In this document: piece by piece, positions 6,806 through 40,776 of the stretch | Layout of the letters: every line of letters begins with the position of its first letter | Position numbering within the stretch: the stretch's first letter is position 1 | Source of the DNA: Armatimonadota bacterium | GTDB taxonomy: Bacteria; Armatimonadota; UBA5829; DTLH01 | Length of the DNA: 40,897 nt | Direction of reading: 5' to 3' | Assembly: GCA_016190935.1 (NCBI GenBank) | Contig: JACPPP010000110.1 | Span: forward strand, 1 to 40,897 | The notes under the pieces: model-generated | Seen by the model: only the letters and a program-made list of their open reading frames with translations | What the model was told of the DNA's origin: nothing | The model's database searches: none | Made by a program: the position numbers and the translations under genes

Positions 6806-8191
6806 TCATCTATCACTGGGCATCCTTTCGTCGTATGCAGTCCTGGTCTCGCCAAGAACCGAGAGCAAGGAGTGCAGGCCACCTGTCTGCATCCGCACGT
6901 CAAGGCCGTCTTCGTTTACTGATATGCTCTCGACCAGGGCACCCACGATCATTCGCTGTTCAGCGGGGTAAAGCTCGTTCCAGATGGGATCGAACTGCTG
7001 GAGAGCATCGGTTACTTCCCATCGGGTAACGGCTGCCGAGTCGAGATCACAGGATGCGAGATATGTCTGAGCTATCATCTCCGGCGACTTGATGATCGAG
7101 CGGATCTGGTCTACCACAGCCTTCTCGATATCACCGGCGGGCAGAAGCCTCACTGGGCATGAGGTATAGCCGTTCTTGCCTGCCTTAACGCACAGGTAGT
7201 ACCGGTACGTCCGACCGCCCTTCCGGGTGTACGTGCTCGTCATGGCACACTCACAGTGTCCGCAGCGAATCACCCCTTTGAGGAGTGACGGCACCTTCTC
7301 ATGGGCAACCTGCTCTCTTGGCGGATTCGACTTCAGCATCGTCTGCACTCTGTCCCAGAGCTTGCGCGAGACTATGGCTTTATGCTCGCCTGGGTAGACT
7401 TTTTCCTTGTGTGCTATCTCGCCGACGTATGTCCGATTGTTCAGCAGTCGGTAGATATGCGATGCGTTCCAAGGCTTCCCCGGCCGAGTCGCGCCTTTGC
7501 GGGTGGTCCACGACTTGGTGGTTATTCCGAGTCCGTTCAGTTCCTTCGCGATTCCCAGTCCTGACCCGGTCTCTGCATGCCGCCTGAATATCCGGAGGAC
7601 GGTCTTTGCCTCCTCTTCGTTCACGATTAGCTTGTGGGTCAGCGGATCGGGATCGTACCCCAAGAGCGGTGTGCCGCCGGTATACTTACCTTTCTTCTTT
7701 GCGCCAGCGATCTTGTCGCGCACCCGTTCGGCGATGATGGCTCTCTCGAACTCGGCAAAGCTCATCAGAATGTTCAGCGTGAGTTTCCCAATGGCAGTTG
7801 TTGTCGAGAAGTTCTGGGTGATGCTCACAAAGGAGACGTCACGAGCCTCGAATAGCTCCATTAACTTCGCAAAGTCGAGCAGGGAGCGCGAGAGCCTGTC
7901 TACTTTGTATGTAACAACCACATCTATCTTGCTGGATCGAATGTCGTCGAGCATTCGCTGGAGGGCGGGACGGTCGGCGTTAGCGCCGGTGAAACCGCCA
8001 TCCGAGTAGACATCAGACAAGAGTGTCCAGCCCTCATGTCGCTGGCTCGCTACATATGCCTCACATGCCTCACGTTGGGCATCAAGGCTGTCGAACTCCA
8101 TGTCGAGGCCGTCTTCGGTGGATTTCCTGCAGTACACGGCGCACCGAAGCGTCTGCTGCGCAGTGGCAGGGGCTGTTGGAGCAGTCATCAT
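6806..8191 (-). CDS. Large serine recombinase (prophage integrase candidate)
   Basis: 461 aa; resolvase domain (AVYCRKSTEDGLDMEFDSLDAQREACEAYV; YKVDRLSRSLLDFAKLMELFE), recombinase and zinc-ribbon segments. Confidence 0.94.
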   Translation of the reverse strand: MMTAPTAPATAQQTLRCAVYCRKSTEDGLDMEFDSLDAQREACEAYVASQRHEGWTLLSDVYSDGGFTGANADRPALQRMLDDIRSSKIDVVVTYKVDRLSRSLLDFAKLMELFEARDVSFVSITQNFSTTTAIGKLTLNILMSFAEFERAIIAERVRDKIAGAKKKGKYTGGTPLLGYDPDPLTHKLIVNEEEAKTVLRIFRRHAETGSGLGIAKELNGLGITTKSWTTRKGATRPGKPWNASHIYRLLNNRTYVGEIAHKEKVYPGEHKAIVSRKLWDRVQTMLKSNPPREQVAHEKVPSLLKGVIRCGHCECAMTSTYTRKGGRTYRYYLCVKAGKNGYTSCPVRLLPAGDIEKAVVDQIRSIIKSPEMIAQTYLASCDLDSAAVTRWEVTDALQQFDPIWNELYPAEQRMIVGALVESISVNEDGLDVRMQTGGLHSLLSVLGETRTAYDERMPSDR

Positions 8192-8752: not shown

Positions 8753-9169
8753 CTATTTCCGAACAGCTTTTGCTGATGCCGCCGCGCGCATCTGGGCGAG
8801 CGTCTTGCCCTTGGTCCACTGGGCGTGCGGGCGATCCTTGAAGGTCTTCCAGCTTCCGCCCCATTCGAGGCCGCACTGCTGGGCGATCTTCCCGAACACA
8901 TCCCACGGGCCGTTCCAGGTAACCTTGCCGTTGATAACAAAGGCGTAGTCGGCTGCGAGACCGAAGTTGTGCCAGGAGTACCCGCCGCGCGCGTTGGTCA
9001 CGATGCTCCCGGGCGCGGTGCGGCCCTTGGCGTATAGCTGGTTCTGGCTCACGATGGACCTGTAGCCCCAAGTCAGAACGACCTTGATGCCATGGTCGGC
9101 AAGCTTCTTCTCGAAGAGGTTGAGCTTCTTGGCGAACTCGGGGTCAAGCCCGACTCTCGACGCGCTCAT
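8753..9169 (-). CDS. Peptidase M15-family endolysin
   Basis: 138 aa; GYRSIVSQNQLYAKGR, SWHNFGLAADYAFV and PHAQW match phage L-alanyl-D-glutamate endopeptidases. Confidence 0.88.
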   Translation of the reverse strand: MSASRVGLDPEFAKKLNLFEKKLADHGIKVVLTWGYRSIVSQNQLYAKGRTAPGSIVTNARGGYSWHNFGLAADYAFVINGKVTWNGPWDVFGKIAQQCGLEWGGSWKTFKDRPHAQWTKGKTLAQMRAAASAKAVRK

Positions 9170-9375
9170 CGGCTCTCTCCCTTCGGAAGCGATTTGGCGC
9201 TATGAACGCTCTTGTCAGCGAAAACATCAAGTCCAGAGTTCGCAAGCGTGCGGCCTTTATTCATCTGGTTCATCTCGCGTTTCCTCCTGCGCAGTATTCC
9301 GGCGGCAAGAATCCCCGCCACCTCAGCCATTCTGTCATCAAAGGTCAGCCGGTTCGGATAGCAGTCTGTAGGCAT
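9166..9375 (-). CDS. Small prophage protein of unknown function
   Basis: RBS AGGAGG before ATG at 9375; RLTFDDRMAEVAGILAAGILRRRKRE. The longer ORF start (9447) would include the regulatory motif. Confidence 0.55.
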   Translation of the reverse strand: MPTDCYPNRLTFDDRMAEVAGILAAGILRRRKREMNQMNKGRTLANSGLDVFADKSVHSAKSLPKGESR

Positions 9376-9415: not shown

Positions 9416-9456
9416 CAGTTGATATTTACTGGCGGGGATTCCAGCATGCCGGGAAT
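9416..9456 (-). promoter_or_regulatory. Phage regulatory motif copy C (upstream of lysis genes)
   Basis: Minus strand: ATTCCCGGC-N12-CCGCCAGTAAATATCAACTG, identical to copy A at both conserved blocks, 40 nt from the ATG at 9375. Confidence 0.7.
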
Positions 9457-10044
9457 CTACACGTACTCGTCCAACCCGTGTTCCAGGAACAGGAAAGCGA
9501 TCCGACGTCGAAGCTCGTCGATCTTGTGCCTGGAGACCCCGTCCTCGCGGGCGATATCGACAATCGTGCGCTCCTGCAGTCGCACGCACAGGTTCTGCAG
9601 ATCGGCGGGAAGAAGGGATACCGCGCATTGCACATCGATGCGCATCTCCAGAATGTCGAACGCTCGGCGGCTGATGCGACCCGTGGCCATCAGATACCCC
9701 TCGGCGTCGATGGCTTCCCCGCGCGACACCCTGTCACCCGTCTCGGTCTCGATTGTCTCGTCGAGGGAGCAGTCGTGCTGTCGGAAGTCGAACTGACTGG
9801 TGAGCCTCGCGCTGACCATGGTTCGGATCTTGTTGTCGAGCACGGTGTTGATGAACGTCTTGAGCGTTCCTTTTCGGGGATTGTGCTTGGGAAGTTGCTG
9901 GCGCAGGTGAAGCGACAGGTCCTGTTCGATGTCTTCTTGATCGCTTCTTGTGTAGCCCGCCTGACCTATCAGGCGGCGTGTCTTGTAGCGGATGAGGTTG
10001 GTGGCATAGTCGTTGAGCCCCTCAAATGGATTGGTGTGATGCAT
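9457..10044 (-). CDS. ECF-like phage sigma factor
   Basis: 195 aa; region-2-like N-terminus (DQEDIEQDLSLHLRQQL...GTLKTFINTVLDNKI) and region-4-like C-terminus (LPADLQNLCVRLQERTIVDIAREDGVSRHKIDELRRRI). Confidence 0.75.
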   Translation of the reverse strand: MHHTNPFEGLNDYATNLIRYKTRRLIGQAGYTRSDQEDIEQDLSLHLRQQLPKHNPRKGTLKTFINTVLDNKIRTMVSARLTSQFDFRQHDCSLDETIETETGDRVSRGEAIDAEGYLMATGRISRRAFDILEMRIDVQCAVSLLPADLQNLCVRLQERTIVDIAREDGVSRHKIDELRRRIAFLFLEHGLDEYV

Positions 10045-10243
10045 TTCGCCTCCTCGGTCGGTTCAGCTCTCGAACCTCCCGGGGAGGACTGCAGACCTTC
10101 GCGGATCACCGGTTGGGTTGCAGGCTCACGTGAGATGCTCTCGCCGAACCTTTCAACCGGGAATCTCGAAATTTCGCCGATGTAGATGGGGAGCAACGGC
10201 CAAATGCACCGTTGAGAGGGGTGTAGAGGATAGTACCAAGATG

Positions 10244-10285
10244 CAAAAAGGGCAGGAAAAAATCCGTAAGAATTTCTTCCTGCCC
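10244..10285 (-). terminator. Rho-independent terminator
   Basis: Minus strand GGGCAGGAAGAAAT-TCTTACGG-ATTTTTTCCTGCCC (14-bp stem with one G.U) then CTTTTTG-type T tract. Confidence 0.7.
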
Positions 10286-10316
10286 TCGTCTGGGGTCAGC
10301 GAAATTTCGCTGGAGG

Positions 10317-12580: not shown

Positions 12581-13243
12581 TCAGTCAGCGCCCCGGACAG
12601 CCACGACCTTCCCCACAATTCTCAGGTCGTCGTCTGGACCTATGGGCATCGGCTTGTATTTCGGATTCTCCGGCCGGAGTTCAATCCGGTCGTCCGTGAT
12701 ATAGAGCCTCTTTACTGTCGCCTCGTCCTCAAGCAGCGCCACGACTATGTCGCCACTCTCGGACACAGGCTGTTGGCGGACAATCAGCGTGTCTCCCTCA
12801 TTAATGCCCGCGCCTTTCATGCTGTCGCCTTGCACAGCAAGAGCGAAGAACCGACCGCCTGACACCACGCTGCTGTCCACCAAGACCTCACCAATAACAT
12901 TCTCGTCCGCCAAGATCGGTAGTCCTGCGGCTACCCTGCCGATCACCGGCACGGAGACAAGGCCCAAAACCGGGCTGACAGGTTCCCGGACGATTGCCAG
13001 TCCCCTGGCTTTGCCCGGATCTCTCTTCAGATAGCCCTTGCGAACGAGCTGGCTGATCTGGTCGTGAGCGCTCGCGTTCGTGATGCCCAGCAACTCGCCA
13101 AGCTCGGCCACGGTCGGCGGAAAGCCGTGCTGGTCAACAAACCTCTGAATTGCCCTGAGCGTTCTCAACTGCGTGTCGCTTATCTCCGCAGTCGGCTTGC
13201 GCCCAGGCTTGAGTCTTTCACTTGAGCTGTTCTTGGGGTCCAT
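12581..13243 (-). CDS. lexA: LexA-type autocleaving repressor
   Basis: 220 aa; LexA N-terminal wHTH (QHGFPPTVAELGELLGITNASAHDQISQLVRKGYL), AG cleavage site (GRVAAGLPI), catalytic GDSM and ATVKRL Lys. Confidence 0.92.
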   Translation of the reverse strand: MDPKNSSSERLKPGRKPTAEISDTQLRTLRAIQRFVDQHGFPPTVAELGELLGITNASAHDQISQLVRKGYLKRDPGKARGLAIVREPVSPVLGLVSVPVIGRVAAGLPILADENVIGEVLVDSSVVSGGRFFALAVQGDSMKGAGINEGDTLIVRQQPVSESGDIVVALLEDEATVKRLYITDDRIELRPENPKYKPMPIGPDDDLRIVGKVVAVRGAD

Positions 13244-13304: not shown

Positions 13305-13333
13305 ATTATATCACCTAATGGCTGTCTGGTCAA
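13305..13333 (-). promoter_or_regulatory. Sigma70-type promoter for the lexA-like gene
   Basis: Minus strand TTGACC - 17 nt - TATAAT, 62 nt upstream of the ATG. Confidence 0.65.
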
Positions 13334-13379: not shown

Positions 13380-13420
13380 ATTCCCGGCAACCACCCCCAA
13401 CCGCCAGTAAATATCAACTG
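13380..13420 (+). promoter_or_regulatory. Phage regulatory motif copy A (upstream of early/replication module)
   Basis: ATTCCCGGC-N12-CCGCCAGTAAATATCAACTG, 65 nt from the start of 13486. Confidence 0.7.
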
Positions 13421-13485: not shown

Positions 13486-13800
13486 TTGATACGAACGGTA
13501 TACAAGTTCACATTCGACGACAGCGTAGCGATGGACGACGTCGAGCGAATACTCGCATTGTCCGCTATTCCCGTGGAGTCGATCCACGGTGAGTCTGCGA
13601 TGTTGGTCGACGGCAGATTTGCCGTGAATAAGAGGCGTCGCACCTGCCTGATAGACGCGGAGTCTCAGCTCGGAAACGACCTCGCGAGAGTGTTCACAGG
13701 ATTCCTGAACGCCAACGCCGGTGGCAGCTTCCGAGTCGATTTCGGGGAGACCGGCGAGCGGCTCGGCGATGTGCTCGATCTGTATGGAGCATTCGCATGA
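13486..13800 (+). CDS. Phage early protein of unknown function
   Basis: TTG start after GGAGG; 104 aa; overlaps the next gene's ATG; first gene of the rightward operon. Confidence 0.6.
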   Translation: MIRTVYKFTFDDSVAMDDVERILALSAIPVESIHGESAMLVDGRFAVNKRRRTCLIDAESQLGNDLARVFTGFLNANAGGSFRVDFGETGERLGDVLDLYGAFA

Positions 13801-14825
13801 ACGAGCCGATGCTCACCACCTACTCATTCTGGAACTCGTTCCGCAACTGCCGGAAAGCCTGCGAGTGGAGGTATCTGAGAGAACTGGTCCCCATCGGTCG
13901 GGACCAGGCCCTCTCATTCGGAACGCTCATCCACACGTGCCTTGAGATGTGGCACGGCGGTGACGGCCTGGATTCCGTGCTCGACTTCCTCGACAGATCA
14001 CTGCCGAACCGGGCGCAGGACGAATCGCGGAAGTCCGACTGGCACTTGGCCAGAGCAATGATGACCGGCTATGCCGCACGGTACGCAACTGAGGATTTCG
14101 ATATCGTCGCTCTTGAGAAAACGTTCGAGGGCAAGATCATCAATCCCGCTACCGGAGCATGTTCCCGCAGCTTGACCATGGCCGGAAAGGTAGACGGCAT
14201 AGTGCGGATGCGGGCAACTGGTGAGCACTACATCCTCGAGCACAAGACGGCCTCGCAAGTGGACGCCGACTATCTGGAACGCCTATGGACTGATCTCCAG
14301 ATCACGCTGTATGCGCGCTACATCGAGCAGACGCTCGGTATTCGCATCGCTGGCGTCATCTACAATGTGCTCGTCAAGGCCAAGCTCCAGCAGGCCAAGG
14401 GCGAGACCGAAGCCGAGTTCGAATCCCGCCGCGCCGACCTGCTGTCCAAATCCAAGACCGGCAAGTCTGCCGCCACGCGCAAGTTGCCGGAATCGGATGA
14501 GGCATTTCAAAACCGGCTCGCAGCCAAGTACGCGGAGCCGGATATGTTCTGTCGAGAAGCTCTCTATATCTCGCGCGACCAGTTCGACGCGATGAAGAGC
14601 GACCTCTGGGAGCTTACCCAGCAGTTCCTCGACTGCAGACGGCGCGACGCGTTCTGCCGGAACACATCCTACTGCTTCGCCAACCATCGGACGTGCGCAT
14701 ACTTCCCGCTCTGTCGTTCAAACGGCAGCGAGAACGTGATCGCCAACTTCTACGAGACGAGACCGCCACACGAGGAGCTGCGGTCGGACTCTGAGATATC
14801 AACCGCCCACAAGGAGGCATTCTGA
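13797..14825 (+). CDS. PD-(D/E)XK (RecB/Cas4-like) nuclease
   Basis: 342 aa; GTLIHTCLE, YILEHKTAS (D/ExK) and C-terminal Cys cluster CRRRDAFCRNTSYCFANHRTCAYFPLC. Confidence 0.83.
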   Translation: MNEPMLTTYSFWNSFRNCRKACEWRYLRELVPIGRDQALSFGTLIHTCLEMWHGGDGLDSVLDFLDRSLPNRAQDESRKSDWHLARAMMTGYAARYATEDFDIVALEKTFEGKIINPATGACSRSLTMAGKVDGIVRMRATGEHYILEHKTASQVDADYLERLWTDLQITLYARYIEQTLGIRIAGVIYNVLVKAKLQQAKGETEAEFESRRADLLSKSKTGKSAATRKLPESDEAFQNRLAAKYAEPDMFCREALYISRDQFDAMKSDLWELTQQFLDCRRRDAFCRNTSYCFANHRTCAYFPLCRSNGSENVIANFYETRPPHEELRSDSEISTAHKEAF

Positions 14826-23543: not shown

Positions 23544-24461
23544 TCAGATCAGTTCGAGCGCATCCTCCAGCGCCTCGTCAGAGAGGTGCGTGTAGATTTC
23601 AGTCGTCGAGATGTCGCAGTGGCCGAGGGCGCGCTTCACCAGAAGCAGGTCGGAGGTTCTGGCGTAGAGGTGAGTCGCGAAGGTGTGTCGGAGGCCGTGA
23701 GGCGAGATACGCTTTGCGATGCCAGCCGCATCCAGCCAGCGCTTCAGCCGCTGCGCGATCTGCCTGTCGCAGAGCCGAGTCCCTCTGGAGGATACGAACA
23801 GGGCACGACATTCGCCAGTGTCGAGTCTGCGTCGTTCCTGGAGATAGCTCCTCAGCAGAGTGCGGAGAGACGACTTCAGAAACTTGACCTGCGGGATGTT
23901 GCCCTTGCCGGTAATGCGGATGTGCTTGCCGTCGAGGTCAACGTCGTCTATGTCCAGGTTCACCAGTTCCGCGAGCCGAATGCCGGTGCCGAGGAACATC
24001 TCGAAGATGACTCGGTCTCTGCGCGCAATCGGATTGGCGCGGTCATGGAGTTCCTTGAGGAGCCTGCGCTTCTCGGCCTCGGTCAGGAACTCCGGCGGCG
24101 TTCTCGCCAGTCGCTTTGTGGTAACGGTCTTAGCCGGGTTGGTCTCGGTGAGACCACTCTCAGCGGTCCAGGCGAAGAACGAACGGACGACGGCCTTCAG
24201 CCGATGCATTGTTGCCGGGGACTTGGGCGCGGCACCGTCGGAGTACGCGACTACAGGATCGATGAGCGCGGCGTCGATCATCCCAGGCGTGATGCTTCGC
24301 ATACCGTCACTGGGCAGCGCGCGGGCGAAGCATCGCAGGTCACGCAGATAGGCGGAGATGGTATGCTCCGAGCGACCTTGCGCCCGGAGCCTTACCGCGA
24401 AGTTGTCTATCGTCCGTTCGAGGTCGTCAGTCGGCTGCAGCAACCGGATCGGATTCGGCAT
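23544..24461 (-). CDS. Tyrosine recombinase (XerC/D-like)
   Basis: 305 aa; core-binding domain, GTGIRLAELVNL, ISPHGLRHTFATHLYA, LGHCDISTTEIYTHLS. Confidence 0.94.
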   Translation of the reverse strand: MPNPIRLLQPTDDLERTIDNFAVRLRAQGRSEHTISAYLRDLRCFARALPSDGMRSITPGMIDAALIDPVVAYSDGAAPKSPATMHRLKAVVRSFFAWTAESGLTETNPAKTVTTKRLARTPPEFLTEAEKRRLLKELHDRANPIARRDRVIFEMFLGTGIRLAELVNLDIDDVDLDGKHIRITGKGNIPQVKFLKSSLRTLLRSYLQERRRLDTGECRALFVSSRGTRLCDRQIAQRLKRWLDAAGIAKRISPHGLRHTFATHLYARTSDLLLVKRALGHCDISTTEIYTHLSDEALEDALELI

Positions 24462-24822
24462 TGCTCACCTCCGGTGTTGCCTTGAGGCTGCGGCCCATGG
24501 GTGTGTCTTTCGGGAGTGGGAGCTTGGGGATGTAGCCCTGTTCCTTTGCCCAGACCAGGAACGTGCGGAAGACGCGGATGGTCTTCTTGACAGTGATCTC
24601 GGAGCGGTCCTTGTCGCCGTGCATCTTGAGGAGCGCGTCCGACTTGAGGAACCCGGATACGTGTGGGATCAGGATCGCCGAGAGCTTCTTGTCGGGACCG
24701 AAGAACGCCTCGACCTGTTCGAGGTCTTTTGAGTAGGTATAGAGCGTGCGTTCGCTCTTGCCCTGGCCCTTGAGATACTCAAGGTGCTCATGGACAGCTT
24801 CGTGAAGTGTCTTTTCCGTCAT
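24427..24822 (-). CDS. Stand-alone SAM-like core-binding domain protein
   Basis: From MTEKTLHEAVHEHLEYLKGQGKSERTLYTYSKDLEQVEAFF; matches the N-terminal domain of tyrosine recombinases but has no catalytic domain; overlaps the next gene. Confidence 0.75.
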   Translation of the reverse strand: MTEKTLHEAVHEHLEYLKGQGKSERTLYTYSKDLEQVEAFFGPDKKLSAILIPHVSGFLKSDALLKMHGDKDRSEITVKKTIRVFRTFLVWAKEQGYIPKLPLPKDTPMGRSLKATPEVSNAESDPVAAAD

Positions 24823-24898
24823 TCTACTACCTCCTGATGGTTGGGTGTTGCATTCACATTCACGCTCAGGTTGCATGTGAAGTCAAGTCATTCTTGCC

Positions 24899-33147: not shown

Positions 33148-33485
33148 GGCTTCGATACATGATTGAACACGCGCTTCGGGATCGGGACATGAACCCGCGC
33201 TATGAACCCATCGGCGTTTGGGTTCAGGGTTCCGGCCCAGGGCTGGATATCGTGATGGAATACCTGCCGGGCAATGAGGACGCCCAAGAGGAAGCGGACT
33301 GGGTCATCAACCGCTTGGTGGAGAACGATATCAGGTCCCTGCCGGGTGACTTCCTGGAGTATCACCGGTCCACGATGTCCCCGTATCGCGGCATGCGCGG
33401 AGAGATAGTGGAGACCGAGGAGTATGCGACGGCGGAGGAGTGCGCCGCACGTGTGCTTTCGGGTCTACCAAGACCTCCTACTTAG
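33144..33485 (+). CDS. Protein of unknown function
   Basis: 113 aa from ATG at 33144 overlapping the previous stop; MRLRYMIEHALRDRDMNPRYEPIGV. Confidence 0.55.
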   Translation: MRLRYMIEHALRDRDMNPRYEPIGVWVQGSGPGLDIVMEYLPGNEDAQEEADWVINRLVENDIRSLPGDFLEYHRSTMSPYRGMRGEIVETEEYATAEECAARVLSGLPRPPT

Positions 33486-34446
33486 TTTTGTGCTGCCTGA
33501 CATTCAGCGCCTTCCACAATATCCCAGGGTGGATGCTTATCCGTTCCTGCATCTCATGGTCGGCGGTAAGCAGGTCCGGTCGCACATCGCCGTGATCCAG
33601 AATGAGGTCGAGGAATTCTGTCTCGTTGCTCTGAAAGGGAAGGACAGCGCTCAAACCCGCGCGGCACTCGTCGACGAGGCTTTGTGCCCACGTTCTTCGA
33701 TCCGCCACATGCGATAGGGCATCGCTGCGAAGCACCGGTACTAACTGGTTCTCCAAGTCGCCCAGATCGAAACCGACATCATCACTCTTCACAGTGCGCC
33801 AATCCTTCCGGTTGATTGCGCCGTAGACGACGAAGGCCAGTCGCAGCTTGTTGGCATCCAACAAGCCGCATTGAAGAAGGCGGTGTGAGTCGTAAAGGTC
33901 TCTCGCCGCTCGTCGAGACAACAGCGCCGCGAACTTGCCTGCCGTGATCTCATGCACGTCCAGCATGGGTATGCCCGAAGCGGAGTAACTGCCTATTGGA
34001 AACGAGTCCCGGAGCGTTACAGGCCACAAGGGAACGCGGAGCATGAAGTTCAGGTCAAGCTGCAGGATCCCAGTCGGCGTCACCGCGCTCTCATACTGCA
34101 GCCGGAACTTCCCACCAGCATGTTCCGAAGGACTCCTGGTGATGACATAACCTTCGCGTCCGCATATCGCGGCAATAGCTCGTTCAAGTAAAGGTCTATC
34201 CTCTTCCATCGACGCACGGTCTTGGGAACCAACATAGTTCAGGTCGATATCGACTGAGAGGCGAGGAACCTGCAGCAGGAAGAGATTGAGCGCAGTTCCG
34301 CCTTTCAATGCCAGCTTCCCCTTGAGTTGGGGATGTGAGTTCAGCATCTCCAGCAAGGAAAGCAGATGGATAGCTTTCTCTAGTATCTCCGGCCTGAACC
34401 CCGTGGACTCGGACTCAGCAATCAAGCGATCTCTCGAAATCCTCAT
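33478..34446 (-). CDS. abiEii: AbiEii-family nucleotidyltransferase toxin
   Basis: 322 aa; LKGGTALNLFLLQVPRLSVDIDLNYVG is the AbiEii NTase signature. Confidence 0.88.
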   Translation of the reverse strand: MRISRDRLIAESESTGFRPEILEKAIHLLSLLEMLNSHPQLKGKLALKGGTALNLFLLQVPRLSVDIDLNYVGSQDRASMEEDRPLLERAIAAICGREGYVITRSPSEHAGGKFRLQYESAVTPTGILQLDLNFMLRVPLWPVTLRDSFPIGSYSASGIPMLDVHEITAGKFAALLSRRAARDLYDSHRLLQCGLLDANKLRLAFVVYGAINRKDWRTVKSDDVGFDLGDLENQLVPVLRSDALSHVADRRTWAQSLVDECRAGLSAVLPFQSNETEFLDLILDHGDVRPDLLTADHEMQERISIHPGILWKALNVRQHKTK

Positions 34447-35237
34447 TGCTCGTCCCAGTGCCTTTCGACTATGAAGTCCGGCACAACCAGGTTCCAGTCC
34501 TGGAATAACTTACTGTTGCCCTTGTGTGACCGCTCAAGGTAATGAGGTGACTTCGGACACCGGGCCTTGAGGCGTTCCAGGTGAGAAGGATCGACCATCA
34601 ACTGCTCGCGATGCTGATCCAGGAAGAATCCAACCTTGGCAGCGGTAGTGGCATTGTCCAATAGCTCGACGTATTCAACTATCTTGTCCAGATGGTAATA
34701 CTCTACCATCTCCAGTGATCGCCAGACTTCCTCCCAGCCGCCGGAGAGTTCCGGTCTCTGCAACATGTCTACCATGGTCCGCTCCAGGCTTGTCACGCGC
34801 AAGGTTTCACCATGAGATTCGGCATTGTCCACGGCAAATGCCTCCTGGCCTGTGGTAAGCAGAGAGCGAGGAAACAACACTGCCTTGAACGTTTGTCCCT
34901 CGAAGCCGAAGGAATGAACGCGTGAACGAGAGCAGCAGACGTAGTCGTTGCGCAGTGTGTAACCCTTGCCGTGGAATTGAAGCGCTGTGTGATATGCGAG
35001 AACTGCGTCAGGAGCCATTTTCGTGCATATCAGATAAGGGTCGGCGACTACAGGTATACCGGGAGGCGCGCTGAGGTAAAGCCCTTTTCGCACTTGCTTG
35101 ACCCGGCCGGTGTGAAGATAGTACTTGAGCAAGGCTCTCCGTCCGGTCGTCTTGCCTGGACGTTCGCGTGAGTAGAATTCCTCGAAGTCCCGCGAATCGA
35201 ATACCGTCTTTCTGTTCAGAAACATCTGAGCCTTCAT
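34443..35237 (-). CDS. abiEi: AbiEi-family antitoxin
   Basis: 264 aa; N-terminal wHTH-like RRALLKYYLHTGRVKQVRKGLYLSAPPG; ATGA overlap with the toxin gene. Confidence 0.82.
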   Translation of the reverse strand: MKAQMFLNRKTVFDSRDFEEFYSRERPGKTTGRRALLKYYLHTGRVKQVRKGLYLSAPPGIPVVADPYLICTKMAPDAVLAYHTALQFHGKGYTLRNDYVCCSRSRVHSFGFEGQTFKAVLFPRSLLTTGQEAFAVDNAESHGETLRVTSLERTMVDMLQRPELSGGWEEVWRSLEMVEYYHLDKIVEYVELLDNATTAAKVGFFLDQHREQLMVDPSHLERLKARCPKSPHYLERSHKGNSKLFQDWNLVVPDFIVERHWDEQ

Positions 35238-35548: not shown

Positions 35549-35588
35549 ATTCCGGCACGCCGTGAATTCCGCCAGTAAATATCAACTG
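35549..35588 (+). promoter_or_regulatory. Phage regulatory motif copy B (upstream of the methylase/head module)
   Basis: ATTCCGGC-N12-CCGCCAGTAAATATCAACTG, 41 nt from the start of 35630. Confidence 0.7.
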
Positions 35589-35629: not shown

Positions 35630-38600
35630 TTGATGCAGCTTTTCGCCACGGACAATGACCGGCTTGTCTTTCTTCTGGAGACGGACGCCTCGCGTCACCT
35701 GGAGCGGTTGCTCGCTCAGGCGGCAGAGCTCGTCACCGAGGAACTGCCGGAAGACGAGCGTCCGAAATACATAACCAACTACATCGGCTCCAAGCAGAAG
35801 CTCATCGACTGGATCTGGAAGCACACTCCCGAAGGGGTGGATTCGGTCATAGACGCGTTCTCCGGCTCCGGCGTCGTGGCCTACATGTACAAGACCAAGG
35901 GCCTGCGGGTGCTGGCCAACGACCGGCTTCGTTACTCCTACCACGCTGCCCGCGCAATCGTCGAGAACTCAAGCGTCCGGATAAGCGAGGACGAGCTTGC
36001 CGCTCTGCTTGCGGATAATCCAAAGGCTGGGACCTTTGTCCGAGACAACTTCAAAGGGATATTCTTCGCAAGCGGAGTTCACGGTGTCATCGACCAGATC
36101 CGGGCCAGCGCCGACAAGCTGGAGGGCTACAAGAAGGACATCGCGCTCTTCGCGCTCGGTAAGACTTGCATGTCCGGCAAGGGCGGCTTCGGCCACTTCT
36201 CATCCTCGACCGATTACGGAAAGCGCCAGGACACGCCAGAGGAGTTTCGGCAGCGCTTCGCCGATAACATCGCGCGCATCAATGCGCTCATATTCGACAA
36301 CGGCAAGGAGTGCAAGGCATCGAACAAGGACATCAACGAAGTCCTGTCGGAAGCCAAGGTCGACCTTGCCTACTTCGATCCGCCCTATGCCACCGAGTTC
36401 TCCACAACCAACTACGAGAAGAGCTACCACTTCGTCGAAGGTCTCATGACCTACTGGGACGGTCTCACGCTCGTTGAGGATTCCAAGACTCACCACTACG
36501 AGACCGACCACAAGACGGTGACCAAGGCCAACGCGCAGGAGTTCTTCTCGACGTTTCTCACGAACGCGAAGCATATCCCGAACTGGCTCATCTCTTACCG
36601 CGACCATGCCTACCCAAACGAAGGCGAGATGAAGCAGATCATCTCGGCAAGCGGCATGTCGAGCCGGATGCAGTCTCACCAGCACAGGTATCACATCTCA
36701 TCGAAGCATTCCGAGAACTCAGTCGCGATGGAGCATCTCTTCGTGTGCTCTCGCTCAAAGGAGATGAAGAAGGCCGCGAGCCTCTGTCCTGTCTGTTCTC
36801 AGCAGGCAATGGAGGCCGAGGCCATTTGGGACGAGACGGAAAACGAAATCCGCTACCGCGTCCGCGATCCAGAACAGTTCGACCCCGACAGTTTCAGGCG
36901 GAAACCACTCGACGGCGTGAACGGCGTTGCGATCATCGTTGGCAGGCTGAAGAAGGAGAGCGTTCCACAGGGGCGTGACCCGCAGGCGATGGTCCTGCAG
37001 GCATACCGGTTCGCCAAGAAGACGGACAGCAACCCCGAAGGCTGGACAACCGAGAAAGCCAAGGACTGGATAAAGCAGCATGAGCCTGAGGCGTCCAGCG
37101 CAGAGATTCGGATCGAAGAGAACATGCAGGCGCTGGCCCACGCGCCGCTGTCGGACGACCTTGACCTGCTCTGCTGCCAGGCCGGAATGGACCCGGTCAA
37201 GGTGACGGGCTACATGGGCAACAAGTTCGTGATGCTCGGCTGGATAGAGCGGCAGGTCCCCAAGGACGCAAAGACCGTCGTTGACGCGTTCTCCGGCGGG
37301 GCGAATGTCGCCTACCATCTCAAGCGCAAAGGGATGAAGGTCATCGCAAATGACCTGCTGCTCTTCCCATATCATATCGCACGGGCGGTCGTTGAGAACT
37401 CCCGCGAAGTCTTGACTGACGAGGATATAGAGAGGATTCTTTCTCCCAACCCCAACGCGGGCACGTTCATCGTCGACAACTTCAGCGGTTACTACTACAC
37501 CAAGCGGGTGCTCTCCTGGCTTGACCAGGTGTGGGCTAACATCCAGAAGCTTTCCGGCTACAAGAAAGACCTAGCGCTGGGGGCGCTCGGAAACACGGTC
37601 AAGGCTAAGTCTCTCTACGGTCAGTTCCATCGCTCGAAGATCAACCTCAAAGGCGAACTCGGCACGGAAGCCGACGCGGAGATGGAAGCGGATGCTGGTG
37701 GGTTCAAGGAAAGCCAACTCACCAGCATTCCCATCTCCAGCATGGTGGAGAGCTTCAAGCGGTACGCGAACCAGCTTAACCGGCTGGTCTTCGACAACGG
37801 CCAGGAGTGCAAGGCTTTCCATGGCGACGCGGTAGAGGCGGTGCGGAAGTACGGCGCGGACGTGCTGTATCTCGATCCACCCTACATAACGGAGTTCTCG
37901 AACAACGACTACGAGTATTCGTTGCACTTTGTCGAGGGCTTGATGAACCGCTGGGCGGACAAAGAGCTTCTCGACGACAACCGGCGCAGCTACAAGTCGC
38001 GGACTCACTTCGACCGCGAGAGCATCCGCGCTCTTATCGAGAACCTGGCTTCGGAGGCGCGGGGCAAGTACAAGACTGTGATCATGTCCTACCGGGACCA
38101 CGCGTTCCCGACCGAAAAGGAAATCCGCGACATCTTCGCTGAGCGTTTCGGGCAGGTTCGGGTCAAGGGCATGGATGTCGAGTATGGCATCGTCCTCGGC
38201 AAGGGGGGTGAGGGCAAGAACGGGCGCGAGCTTCTATTCGTGGCGTCCAGTTCCAGGCAGGCTCCCAGGTCAATCGCTTCGGCTGGTGTCTCAAACTGCC
38301 ACACTGCTATCCCCGTGGAAGTGAGTCTGAACAACAAGGACGGACTCTCGTCCGAGGCGATTGACCTCAACCCCAACGCTGGCGATCCACAATTCAGCTT
38401 CATCATGTGTCGCGCTGGCACGAACAAGAACGGCGACCACTTCACCCCGGACGAACTCGCCGCACGCTACACCACGGCCATAAACAGGAAGATCGACCTC
38501 AAACACTCCCAGGAACTCACGGACATCGTGGGCGGCATAGTCGCGGCCGAGTTTGTCGAGGACGAGACCGGCGGGCGCGTCGAGTGCGTAGGCGAGCTTT

Positions 38601-39912: not shown

Positions 39913-40776
39913 TTGGAAGCAACCCAGCTCAACATTCACAGCCAAGAATACATGGAGACCATGGCCCGGCTCATGACCGAAGCTCTGGAATCCCCAGAGG
40001 GCATGCGCGCGCTCGCGGCGGCAATCGCCGATCCAATCGAGCAGGAGATCAAGCGCAAGGAGATAACCTCGCTTCTCCTCACGCAGCACACTCTGCCCAA
40101 GGGTGAGCGGCCGATCTACCAGAAGAAGCCGAAGGTCAAGGCTTACTGGATCAGCACGGAGGGTGAGGCGCGAGAGCAGGAACTCGGTCAGGACGAGGTC
40201 GAGTTCCCAACTAACCGAATCCACTCCACACCGATGGTGGACGTATCGGTGCTGAAGAACGGCAACATCGGCACCCTGATGGACATCCAGACATCTTCGG
40301 CGGACGAGATTCGCAAGGAGATCGACAAGAGAACACTCACGGTCCTCTCTGCGGCCGTGCCGGCCGCGAACACTATCGAGGTCACGGGCGGCAAGCTCAC
40401 CGACGATGCCTTGAACGAGGCCATCTCCATCATTGAGGACCTGGAACTCTCGGTCAAGTACATCGTGATGCGTGGCCGGCGGTTCAACGATATGCGCGAC
40501 TGGGATCTCGACCCGGAGACCCGGGCGGAACTCAGAACCAAAGGTGTCATCAAGAACTACGGCACCGGCGGCATTCTGCTTACCGCTTCCGCCAGCATGA
40601 CTGAGATTCTGTTGGTGCCGGACGATGAGATCGGCAAGATGCCGATTCGCGAATCACTCAAGACCGAGTCCATCGAGCAGAAGACCCGGTTCAAGACGGG
40701 CTGGCTCGTCTGGACGGAGCTTGGGCAGGGCGTCACCCGGCCCGAGATTCTCGCCAAGATCAGGATACTGCCGTAA
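39913..40776 (+). CDS. Major capsid protein (HK97-fold likely)
   Basis: 287 aa, after scaffold and decoration genes; predicted N-arm helix plus P/A-domain-like KYIVMRGRRFNDMRDWD. Confidence 0.75.
   Translation: MEATQLNIHSQEYMETMARLMTEALESPEGMRALAAAIADPIEQEIKRKEITSLLLTQHTLPKGERPIYQKKPKVKAYWISTEGEAREQELGQDEVEFPTNRIHSTPMVDVSVLKNGNIGTLMDIQTSSADEIRKEIDKRTLTVLSAAVPAANTIEVTGGKLTDDALNEAISIIEDLELSVKYIVMRGRRFNDMRDWDLDPETRAELRTKGVIKNYGTGGILLTASASMTEILLVPDDEIGKMPIRESLKTESIEQKTRFKTGWLVWTELGQGVTRPEILAKIRILP

Follow-up and report, generated by a model that had tools for sequence, protein, structure and literature searches.

The bipartite motif that recurs in the window (the whole stretch of DNA analysed here, 40,897 nucleotides from an Armatimonadota bacterium) is, in all likelihood, a set of -35/-10 promoters that would be read by the host RNA polymerase together with a phage-encoded ECF-like sigma factor. 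The case is built on sequence comparison, that is on the elements themselves, their spacing, their positions at the heads of phage modules, the way in which they are coupled to the sigma gene and vary along with it, and the pattern in which motif and sigma factor are exchanged together.

A spaced element at the heads of prophage modules

The window contains the end of a host chromosome contig, with genes of the aspS and hisS type, and then a prophage whose late part within the window comprises terminase, portal, head genes and AbiE-like genes. The features on which the argument draws are the following.

6806-8191, minus strand: serine recombinase
8753-9169, minus strand: endolysin (Peptidase_M15_4), lysis module
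9166-9375, minus strand: small protein, first gene behind promoter copy 1; homologues stand behind such promoters in other phages
9423-9452, minus strand: predicted promoter copy 1; -35 CCGGCA at 9452-9447, N17, -10 GTAAATA at 9429-9423; 25.1 bits
9457-10044, minus strand: predicted ECF-like sigma factor of 195 aa, the proposed promoter reader, directly upstream of copy 1
10041-10178, minus strand: leader RNA, conserved and structured, immediately 5' of the sigma gene
12581-13243, minus strand: LexA-like phage repressor, divergent from copy 2; TIGR00498 174.9 bits, cut-off 110.95
13305-13333, minus strand: host-type promoter-like site for lexA; TTGACC-N17-TATAAT, 11 of 12 matches to the sigma-70 consensus
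13384-13413, plus strand: predicted promoter copy 2; -35 CCGGCA at 13384-13389, N17, -10 GTAAATA at 13407-13413; 16.9 bits
13486-13800, plus strand: first gene behind promoter copy 2; the gene most often represented, by homologues, behind such promoters (28 of 120)
13797-14825, plus strand: PD-(D/E)XK exonuclease, anchor gene of the sigma-swap comparison
35552-35581, plus strand: predicted promoter copy 3; -35 CCGGCA at 35552-35557, N17, -10 GTAAATA at 35575-35581; 24.8 bits
35630-39523, plus strand: large D12-methyltransferase-containing protein behind copy 3; homologues behind such promoters at 6 sites

The 20-mer CCGCCAGTAAATATCAACTG is present in three exact copies, at 9435-9416 (minus strand), 13401-13420 (plus strand) and 35569-35588 (plus strand), where shuffled sequence leads one to expect 0.00, and no further copy with up to three mismatches occurs in the window. 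Exactly 12 nt 5' of the 20-mer stands the block ATTCCCGGC in copies 1 and 2 and ATTCCGGC in copy 3, the base right after this ATTCC(C)GGC block is an A in all three copies, and the N12 between block and 20-mer has a different sequence in each of them. The likely start codon follows the 20-mer at 40 nt for copy 1 (ATG at 9375, minus strand), 65 nt for copy 2 (TTG at 13486, plus strand) and 41-44 nt for copy 3 (TTG at 35630 or ATG at 35633, plus strand). The original prediction, which had placed three identical 20-mers at these sites, with the block at a constant 12 nt across a variable spacer, 40-65 nt upstream of start codons and pointing into different modules, is thereby borne out in every one of these respects. 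Only a few nt separate the beginning of copy 1 from the stop codon of the sigma gene, and this copy points into the lysis module; copy 2, divergent from lexA, reads into the replication/recombination module, that is into gene 13486, the exonuclease and onward; and copy 3 reads into the methyltransferase/head gene and the gene for the major head protein (39913-40776). Terminase and portal in the window have no promoter copy of their own and would need read-through from copy 2. The element is better defined as CCGGCA-N17-GTAAATA with a conserved initiation region, the boundary of the 20-mer being peculiar to the phage family of the window. The promoter-like site of lexA, which is of the sigma-70 consensus type, contrasts with this element; as a site it is weak, one having been found where 1.7 are expected by chance.

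The product of the gene behind copy 3 (1297 aa) shows similarity to D12 methyltransferases in two stretches, followed by an apparent prohead protease/scaffold-type region, and its relatives, 72-87% identical over the aligned part, also stand behind such promoters in other phages. Just upstream of copy 3, on the opposite strand, an AbiEii/AbiEi-like pair (33478-35237, minus strand; type IV toxin-antitoxin or phage defence) is carried as cargo. A tyrosine integrase gene (23544-24461, minus strand) and an ORF resembling the N-terminal part of an integrase (24427-24876, minus strand) lie between the small and the large terminase and oppose the late genes, the prophage carrying a tyrosine integrase as well as the serine recombinase.

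The remainder of the same genome assembly was searched by pattern only, with GGCA-N17-GTAAATA. Besides the three known copies, this search returned one on another contig (G000:C47:24070-24097, minus strand; locus L227), which reads AATCCCGGCA-N17-GTAAATATCCAAGTGGAGG and scores 25.0 bits, the runner-up site on that contig scoring 3.9 bits. Close behind it come a gene for a phage tail protein (phrog_52) and then baseplate genes, and a similar gene (MQMDVYQPVF...) is also behind such a promoter in prophage G242 (L083 -1917). Since the prophage contig (C46) breaks off inside the head module, C47 is probably its continuation, which suggests that the two contigs are pieces of one prophage. At 13.9 bits, a fifth match, on C248, is apparently a chance hit, and in its own genome the pattern is essentially restricted to the prophage and the tail contig.

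Identical 20-mers in three places, able to form a short hairpin (CCAGT-N8-ACTGG), might also be read as a short RNA or DNA structure such as an antitermination site, or as copies of a mobile or recombination site. We give hardly any credence to this reading, as the hairpin arms are not conserved in relatives, the copies are bound to module heads and to one orientation, and the spacer inside the element varies from copy to copy, which counts against recent duplication of one piece. The claim that the copies are not recent duplicates is upheld by the same difference between spacers, with the reservation, based on the spacer comparison given below, that some shared descent is possible.

Variants of the predicted promoter and sigma factors in related phages

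Homologues of the window's sigma factor were found in about 110 phage and prophage loci, distributed over genomes of the same phylum, 41 genome contigs of many phyla and 80 viral contigs, and in most of these loci a diverged version of the window element follows straight after the sigma stop codon. The search of the prophage and its relatives that had been proposed along with the motif thus yields a related element in about a hundred phage loci, with the consensus CCGaCA-N17-GTAgGTA-n3-AGTAGgg. In 86 of 111 sigma-bearing loci, a count that includes near-identical relatives, a site lies at most 60 nt from the stop codon of the sigma gene; in the other 25 no site near this gene exceeds 14 bits, some of these loci having diverged elements (for instance the L156/L158 phage) and others being unexplained. 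An iterated weight matrix over all loci collected 127 non-redundant sites with the consensus tCCGaCA-n-tTCg-N8-tCCGGTAgGTAtc-n-a-n3-Gggg, in which the -35 columns are among the most conserved, with up to 1.84 bits. Because the distance of 17 from CCGACA to GTA is fixed by the construction of the matrix, spacing was tested separately by pattern: in the sigma-bearing phage loci, 1.6 Mb in total, CCG[AG]C[AG]-N17-GTANRTA is matched 70 times, by 52 distinct sequences, the same two elements at other spacings from 8 to 26 have 0-4 matches each, and the N17 pattern has no match in control loci.

For 120 sites that are followed by an ORF, at a median distance of about 50 nt from site to start, the downstream gene was compared with the genes of the window, with the caveat that the downstream ORF was chosen mechanically and some starts are approximate. 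Homologues of the replication-head gene 13486 account for 28 sites, followed by the methyltransferase/head gene (6), the lysis-head gene (5), portal (4), exonuclease (4), the ATPase gene at 14825 (4), a RecD-like helicase (3), gene 21829 (3), the 8188-8691 gene (2), endolysin (2), the sigma gene itself (2), small terminase (1) and integrase (1). The 20-mer in its exact form belongs to a single phage family, and accordingly an exact-pattern scan of the genome contigs gave no match; among viral contigs the exact 16-mer matches 48 times, mostly in unrelated contexts, and the -35 block accompanies it in only eight contigs.

The 16-mer core CAGTAAATATCAACTG has an inverted repeat (CAGTnnATATnnACTG), six of its eight position pairs being complementary, and could accordingly be taken as a dyad operator for a dimeric regulator such as the LexA-like repressor, whose gene adjoins copy 2 and which would coordinate the modules by repression from copies standing before operons. 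Among the relatives, however, the dyad is lost, with 2.78 of 8 pairs compared to 2.66 (sd 0.06) when columns are shuffled, and in L053, a close relative, it is broken in both copies (ACTA, ACAG) while CCGGCA-N17-GTAAATA is kept. Nor would an operator account for a -35 block at a constant distance, for the uniform orientation of the copies or for the dependence on the sigma lineage, and no convincing LexA box common to the upstream regions of lexA and the sigma gene was found. An operator is hence very improbable, the CAGT..ACTG dyad appears to be incidental, and the site for a dimeric activator, which the original prediction had offered as an alternative to a promoter, is not supported, on the same grounds, namely that the dyad of the 16-mer is conserved neither in relatives at large nor in L053.

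Evidence for -35/-10 promoters read by the phage sigma factor comes from co-variation. Copies of the element within one phage carry that phage's own variant, as judged from 27 phage clusters compared with shuffled assignment: identity within phages is 0.74 compared to 0.54 for the -35, 0.87 compared to 0.68 for the -10 and 0.58 compared to 0.39 for the initiation region (each P<=0.001), whereas the downstream flank shows no difference (0.29 compared to 0.28). The identity of the spacer is moderately raised within phages (0.42 compared to 0.28), suggesting that composition or some shared descent of the copies plays a part. Striking variants are shared in L114 (GGAAACA in both copies), in L148 (TGTCACA in two) and in L190 (TTCGTCA...CGGGTAGGTC in both).

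Viral contigs related to the window through the exonuclease gene allow a comparison of phages in which the sigma factor is kept with others in which it is replaced. On contigs whose sigma factor is 80-88% identical, the window element is kept at the heads of the lysis and replication modules; at single sites in L049 and in L056 the -35 is off by one base from the window element. In L204 the exonuclease is 96% and the endolysin 86% identical to those of the window and the sigma factor 34%, and its two promoters read TGCCCA-N17-GTAAGAA and TGCCCG-N17-GTAAATA and have different initiation regions. For L208 the respective values are 86%, 90% and 30%, and both heads carry TCGTC[AG]-N17-ATATGTAGCCATTAG (-10 ATATGTA); for L213 they are 80%, 81% and 43%, and both heads carry CCGACA-N17-GTAAGTAACCAGTGG (-10 GTAAGTA). 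The element goes with the sigma factor and not with the downstream genes, and this sequence pattern is the strongest evidence for the proposed mechanism. Loss of the motif over retained genes, which had been named at the outset as grounds for abandoning the promoter reading, does occur as far as the exact motif is concerned, but the cases examined then have a different sigma factor together with a matching variant. The promoter reading itself is strongly supported by the N17 spacing, the positions at module heads, the coupling to the sigma gene and the replacement of the motif along with it.

A promoter of this kind might be read by a sigma factor of the host, the phage sigma factor acting elsewhere. 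All promoter evidence other than the sigma coupling would fit such an arrangement, and as hosts vary between phages the promoter variants could track the hosts. Yet distinct variants occur within prophages of one bacterial order (G245, G242, G243, G232), variants are swapped together with the sigma factor over near-identical genes, and the host genome outside the phage contigs is nearly devoid of the element, so that reading by a host sigma factor seems very unlikely to us.

The phage sigma factor and its leader RNA

The ORF at 9457-10044 is, to judge from its region 2, its size and its predicted fold, a divergent ECF-like (group 4) protein of the sigma-70 family. In Pfam only region 2 is matched (Sigma70_r2, E=0.0011, which falls short of the curated cut-off); phrog_1740, 'RNA polymerase sigma factor', is matched with E=1.2e-9, and TIGR02937 (sigma70-ECF) over residues 26-182 with E=1.3e-5, below its cut-off, which was exceeded by one of five members of the sigma family tested. 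Aligned homologues match phrog_1740 in 42 of 42 cases and Sigma70_r2 in 41 of 42 at E<=0.01 (best 1.3e-10). For region 4, Sigma70_r4_2 is found in 5 of the 42 and other HTH models in more, and C-terminal helices are present in the AlphaFold model with good confidence (pLDDT about 85-91). The length of 195 aa fits the two-domain type that lacks regions 1.1 and 3. Two AlphaFold models reach pLDDT 78 and 85 and a low pTM (0.42-0.44), as expected for two domains on a flexible linker. Among PDB structures, those listed as similar in fold to these models are sigma factors or RNA polymerase complexes with a sigma factor in them (best E 3.8e-4); the best viral matches include phage RpoE-like proteins, and a profile search of the PDB retrieves ECF sigma factors.

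The sigma gene is immediately preceded by a leader, about 135 nt long, that hardly differs between the window, L053 and L049. The region 5' of the gene comprises a pair of CGAAATTTCG palindromes spaced by 133 bp, a hairpin resembling a terminator and, after these, the leader. A covariance model built from nine sequences matches, outside its training set, L104 (E 4e-22), L102 (5e-19), L120 (6e-11) and L152 (3e-6), these E-values being rough. The leader lies in the other loci as follows.

L104, 2790-2914: leader RNA
L102, 9298-9427: leader RNA
L120, 9297-9422: leader RNA
L152, 4108-4227: leader RNA
L087, 9324-9449: leader RNA

A long-range helix, GGTCCGGCGA/TTCGCCGGACC, has four covarying pairs. 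In the leader alignment, which, having been fitted to the structure tested, is biased in its favour, 96.9% of cells are paired compared to 30-56% when slid, and seven pairs have changed on both sides. The 3' side of the helix appears to lie in the loop of a terminator-like stem in other phages, and in the family of the window the 3' stem would cover the ribosome-binding site of the sigma gene. The leader probably controls sigma expression and is a candidate for a new cis-regulatory RNA, neither the window leader nor the L087 region having a match in Rfam. L055 and L056 have a different region upstream of the sigma gene, from which it follows that the control part is exchangeable.

The palindromes lie in the window at 10167-10176 and 10298-10313, and pairs of palindromes 119-135 bp apart are also seen upstream of the sigma gene or operon in distant phages (L087, L091, L130, L139, L141, L145); such a pair may represent operators or a looping site. 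The terminator-like hairpin GGGCAGGAA..TTCCTGCCCTTTTT (10249-10286, minus strand) separates the lexA operon from the sigma gene, which points to a separate control of the latter.

Proposed circuit and comparison with known phage systems

Sigma binding, start sites, silence in the lysogen and the route of sigma induction are inferred from these data. CCGGCA would serve as the -35, recognized by region 4 of the sigma factor, and GTAAATA as the -10, recognized by region 2, across a fixed 17-bp spacer; the initiation region ATCAACTGGAGG (consensus n3-AGTAGGG) would span the start site, placed about 7 nt past the -10 inside the conserved ACTGGAGG. In the lysogen the sigma factor would be absent and its promoters silent, and the host-type promoter-like site of lexA makes it plausible that host polymerase keeps the repressor module on. 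Induction would allow sigma synthesis, probably by way of the LexA-type repressor module and the regulatory leader RNA, and the sigma factor, once present, would activate the lysis, replication, head and tail modules together.

Systems in which a phage sigma factor serves private promoters are already known. A literature search on this sigma family, its promoter code and its spread, which covered part of the literature, found no description of them. Taken jointly, the observations tentatively suggest, as a possibility we rate somewhat short of probable, an undescribed large regulatory system in temperate phages of many phyla, in which one ECF-like sigma factor with private promoters would switch all lytic modules, sigma-promoter pairs would be swapped as units between phages with near-identical modules, and the sigma gene would be gated by structured leader RNAs of a new class, which contain the covarying long-range helix and would work as attenuator or translational switch. 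Phages and prophages that have not been cultured, in phyla from Armatimonadota to Planctomycetota and Desulfobacterota, acquire a legible promoter code; the element marks the heads of lytic modules, aids annotation and joins contigs of one prophage, as with the tail module here. The natural sigma-promoter pairs, swaps included, form a data set for the choice of the -10 by region 2 and of the -35 by region 4 and a source of orthogonal promoter systems, and sigma gene and leader RNA together are a candidate for a lysis-lysogeny switch that differs from the antiterminators and activators used by model phages.

Sigma homologues are carried by a minority (about 13%) of isolate phages (Schwartz et al., 2022; PMC9429907); that paper, in the parts bearing on this comparison, deals with sporulation-like sigma factors of Bacillota phages and defines no promoter set for an ECF-like family such as the present one. 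The entries phrog_1740 and TIGR02937 name proteins only and attach no promoter to them. In tblastn searches against isolate phages the sigma factors of the window, L138 and L188 found nothing, and that of L150 alone reached a sigma-70 protein of Wolbachia phage WO (KX522565, HQ906663), with about 25% identity. Phage WO has a repeated element, TTGGACG-N17/18-GTATATAT, near this homologue, at 55723-55754, 56599-56631 and 65190-65221 in KX522565 and at 10046-10077 and 10167-10198 in HQ906663, one copy in KX522565 lying directly behind the sigma gene. The motifs given in the relevant part of a Wolbachia Cappable-seq study are only of the sigma-70 type, plus a TAAAAT motif (PMC12558409). The WO element fits the consensus only loosely in sequence and spacing and is possibly, as a lead, the WO version of the same promoter system.

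Late promoters of T4 depend on gp55 and have the -10 TATAAATA and no -35 element. The present system shares with T4 gp55 a phage sigma-like protein and, in the window family, an AT-rich -10 (TAAATA), and -35 columns of up to 1.84 bits do not fit a late promoter of that type. A LexA/SOS-type dyad operator is likewise disfavoured by an inverted repeat that is not conserved among sites and is broken in L053. In the lytic Bacillus phage SPO1, which uses a sigma cascade, the middle and late promoters are read by the phage sigma factors gp28 and gp33/34. To our knowledge, the motif sequences found here are unrelated to those of SPO1. The features of a SPO1-like system, namely a spacing near 17 bp, several copies at operon heads and a sequence that apparently depends on the sigma factor, were all found, and as in SPO1 the phage sigma factor is predicted to redirect host RNA polymerase to promoters with a -35 and a -10 at near-constant spacing. 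Unlike in SPO1, a single ECF-like sigma factor would do so in a temperate phage with repressor and integrase, and in its relatives, and the promoters also head the replication module.
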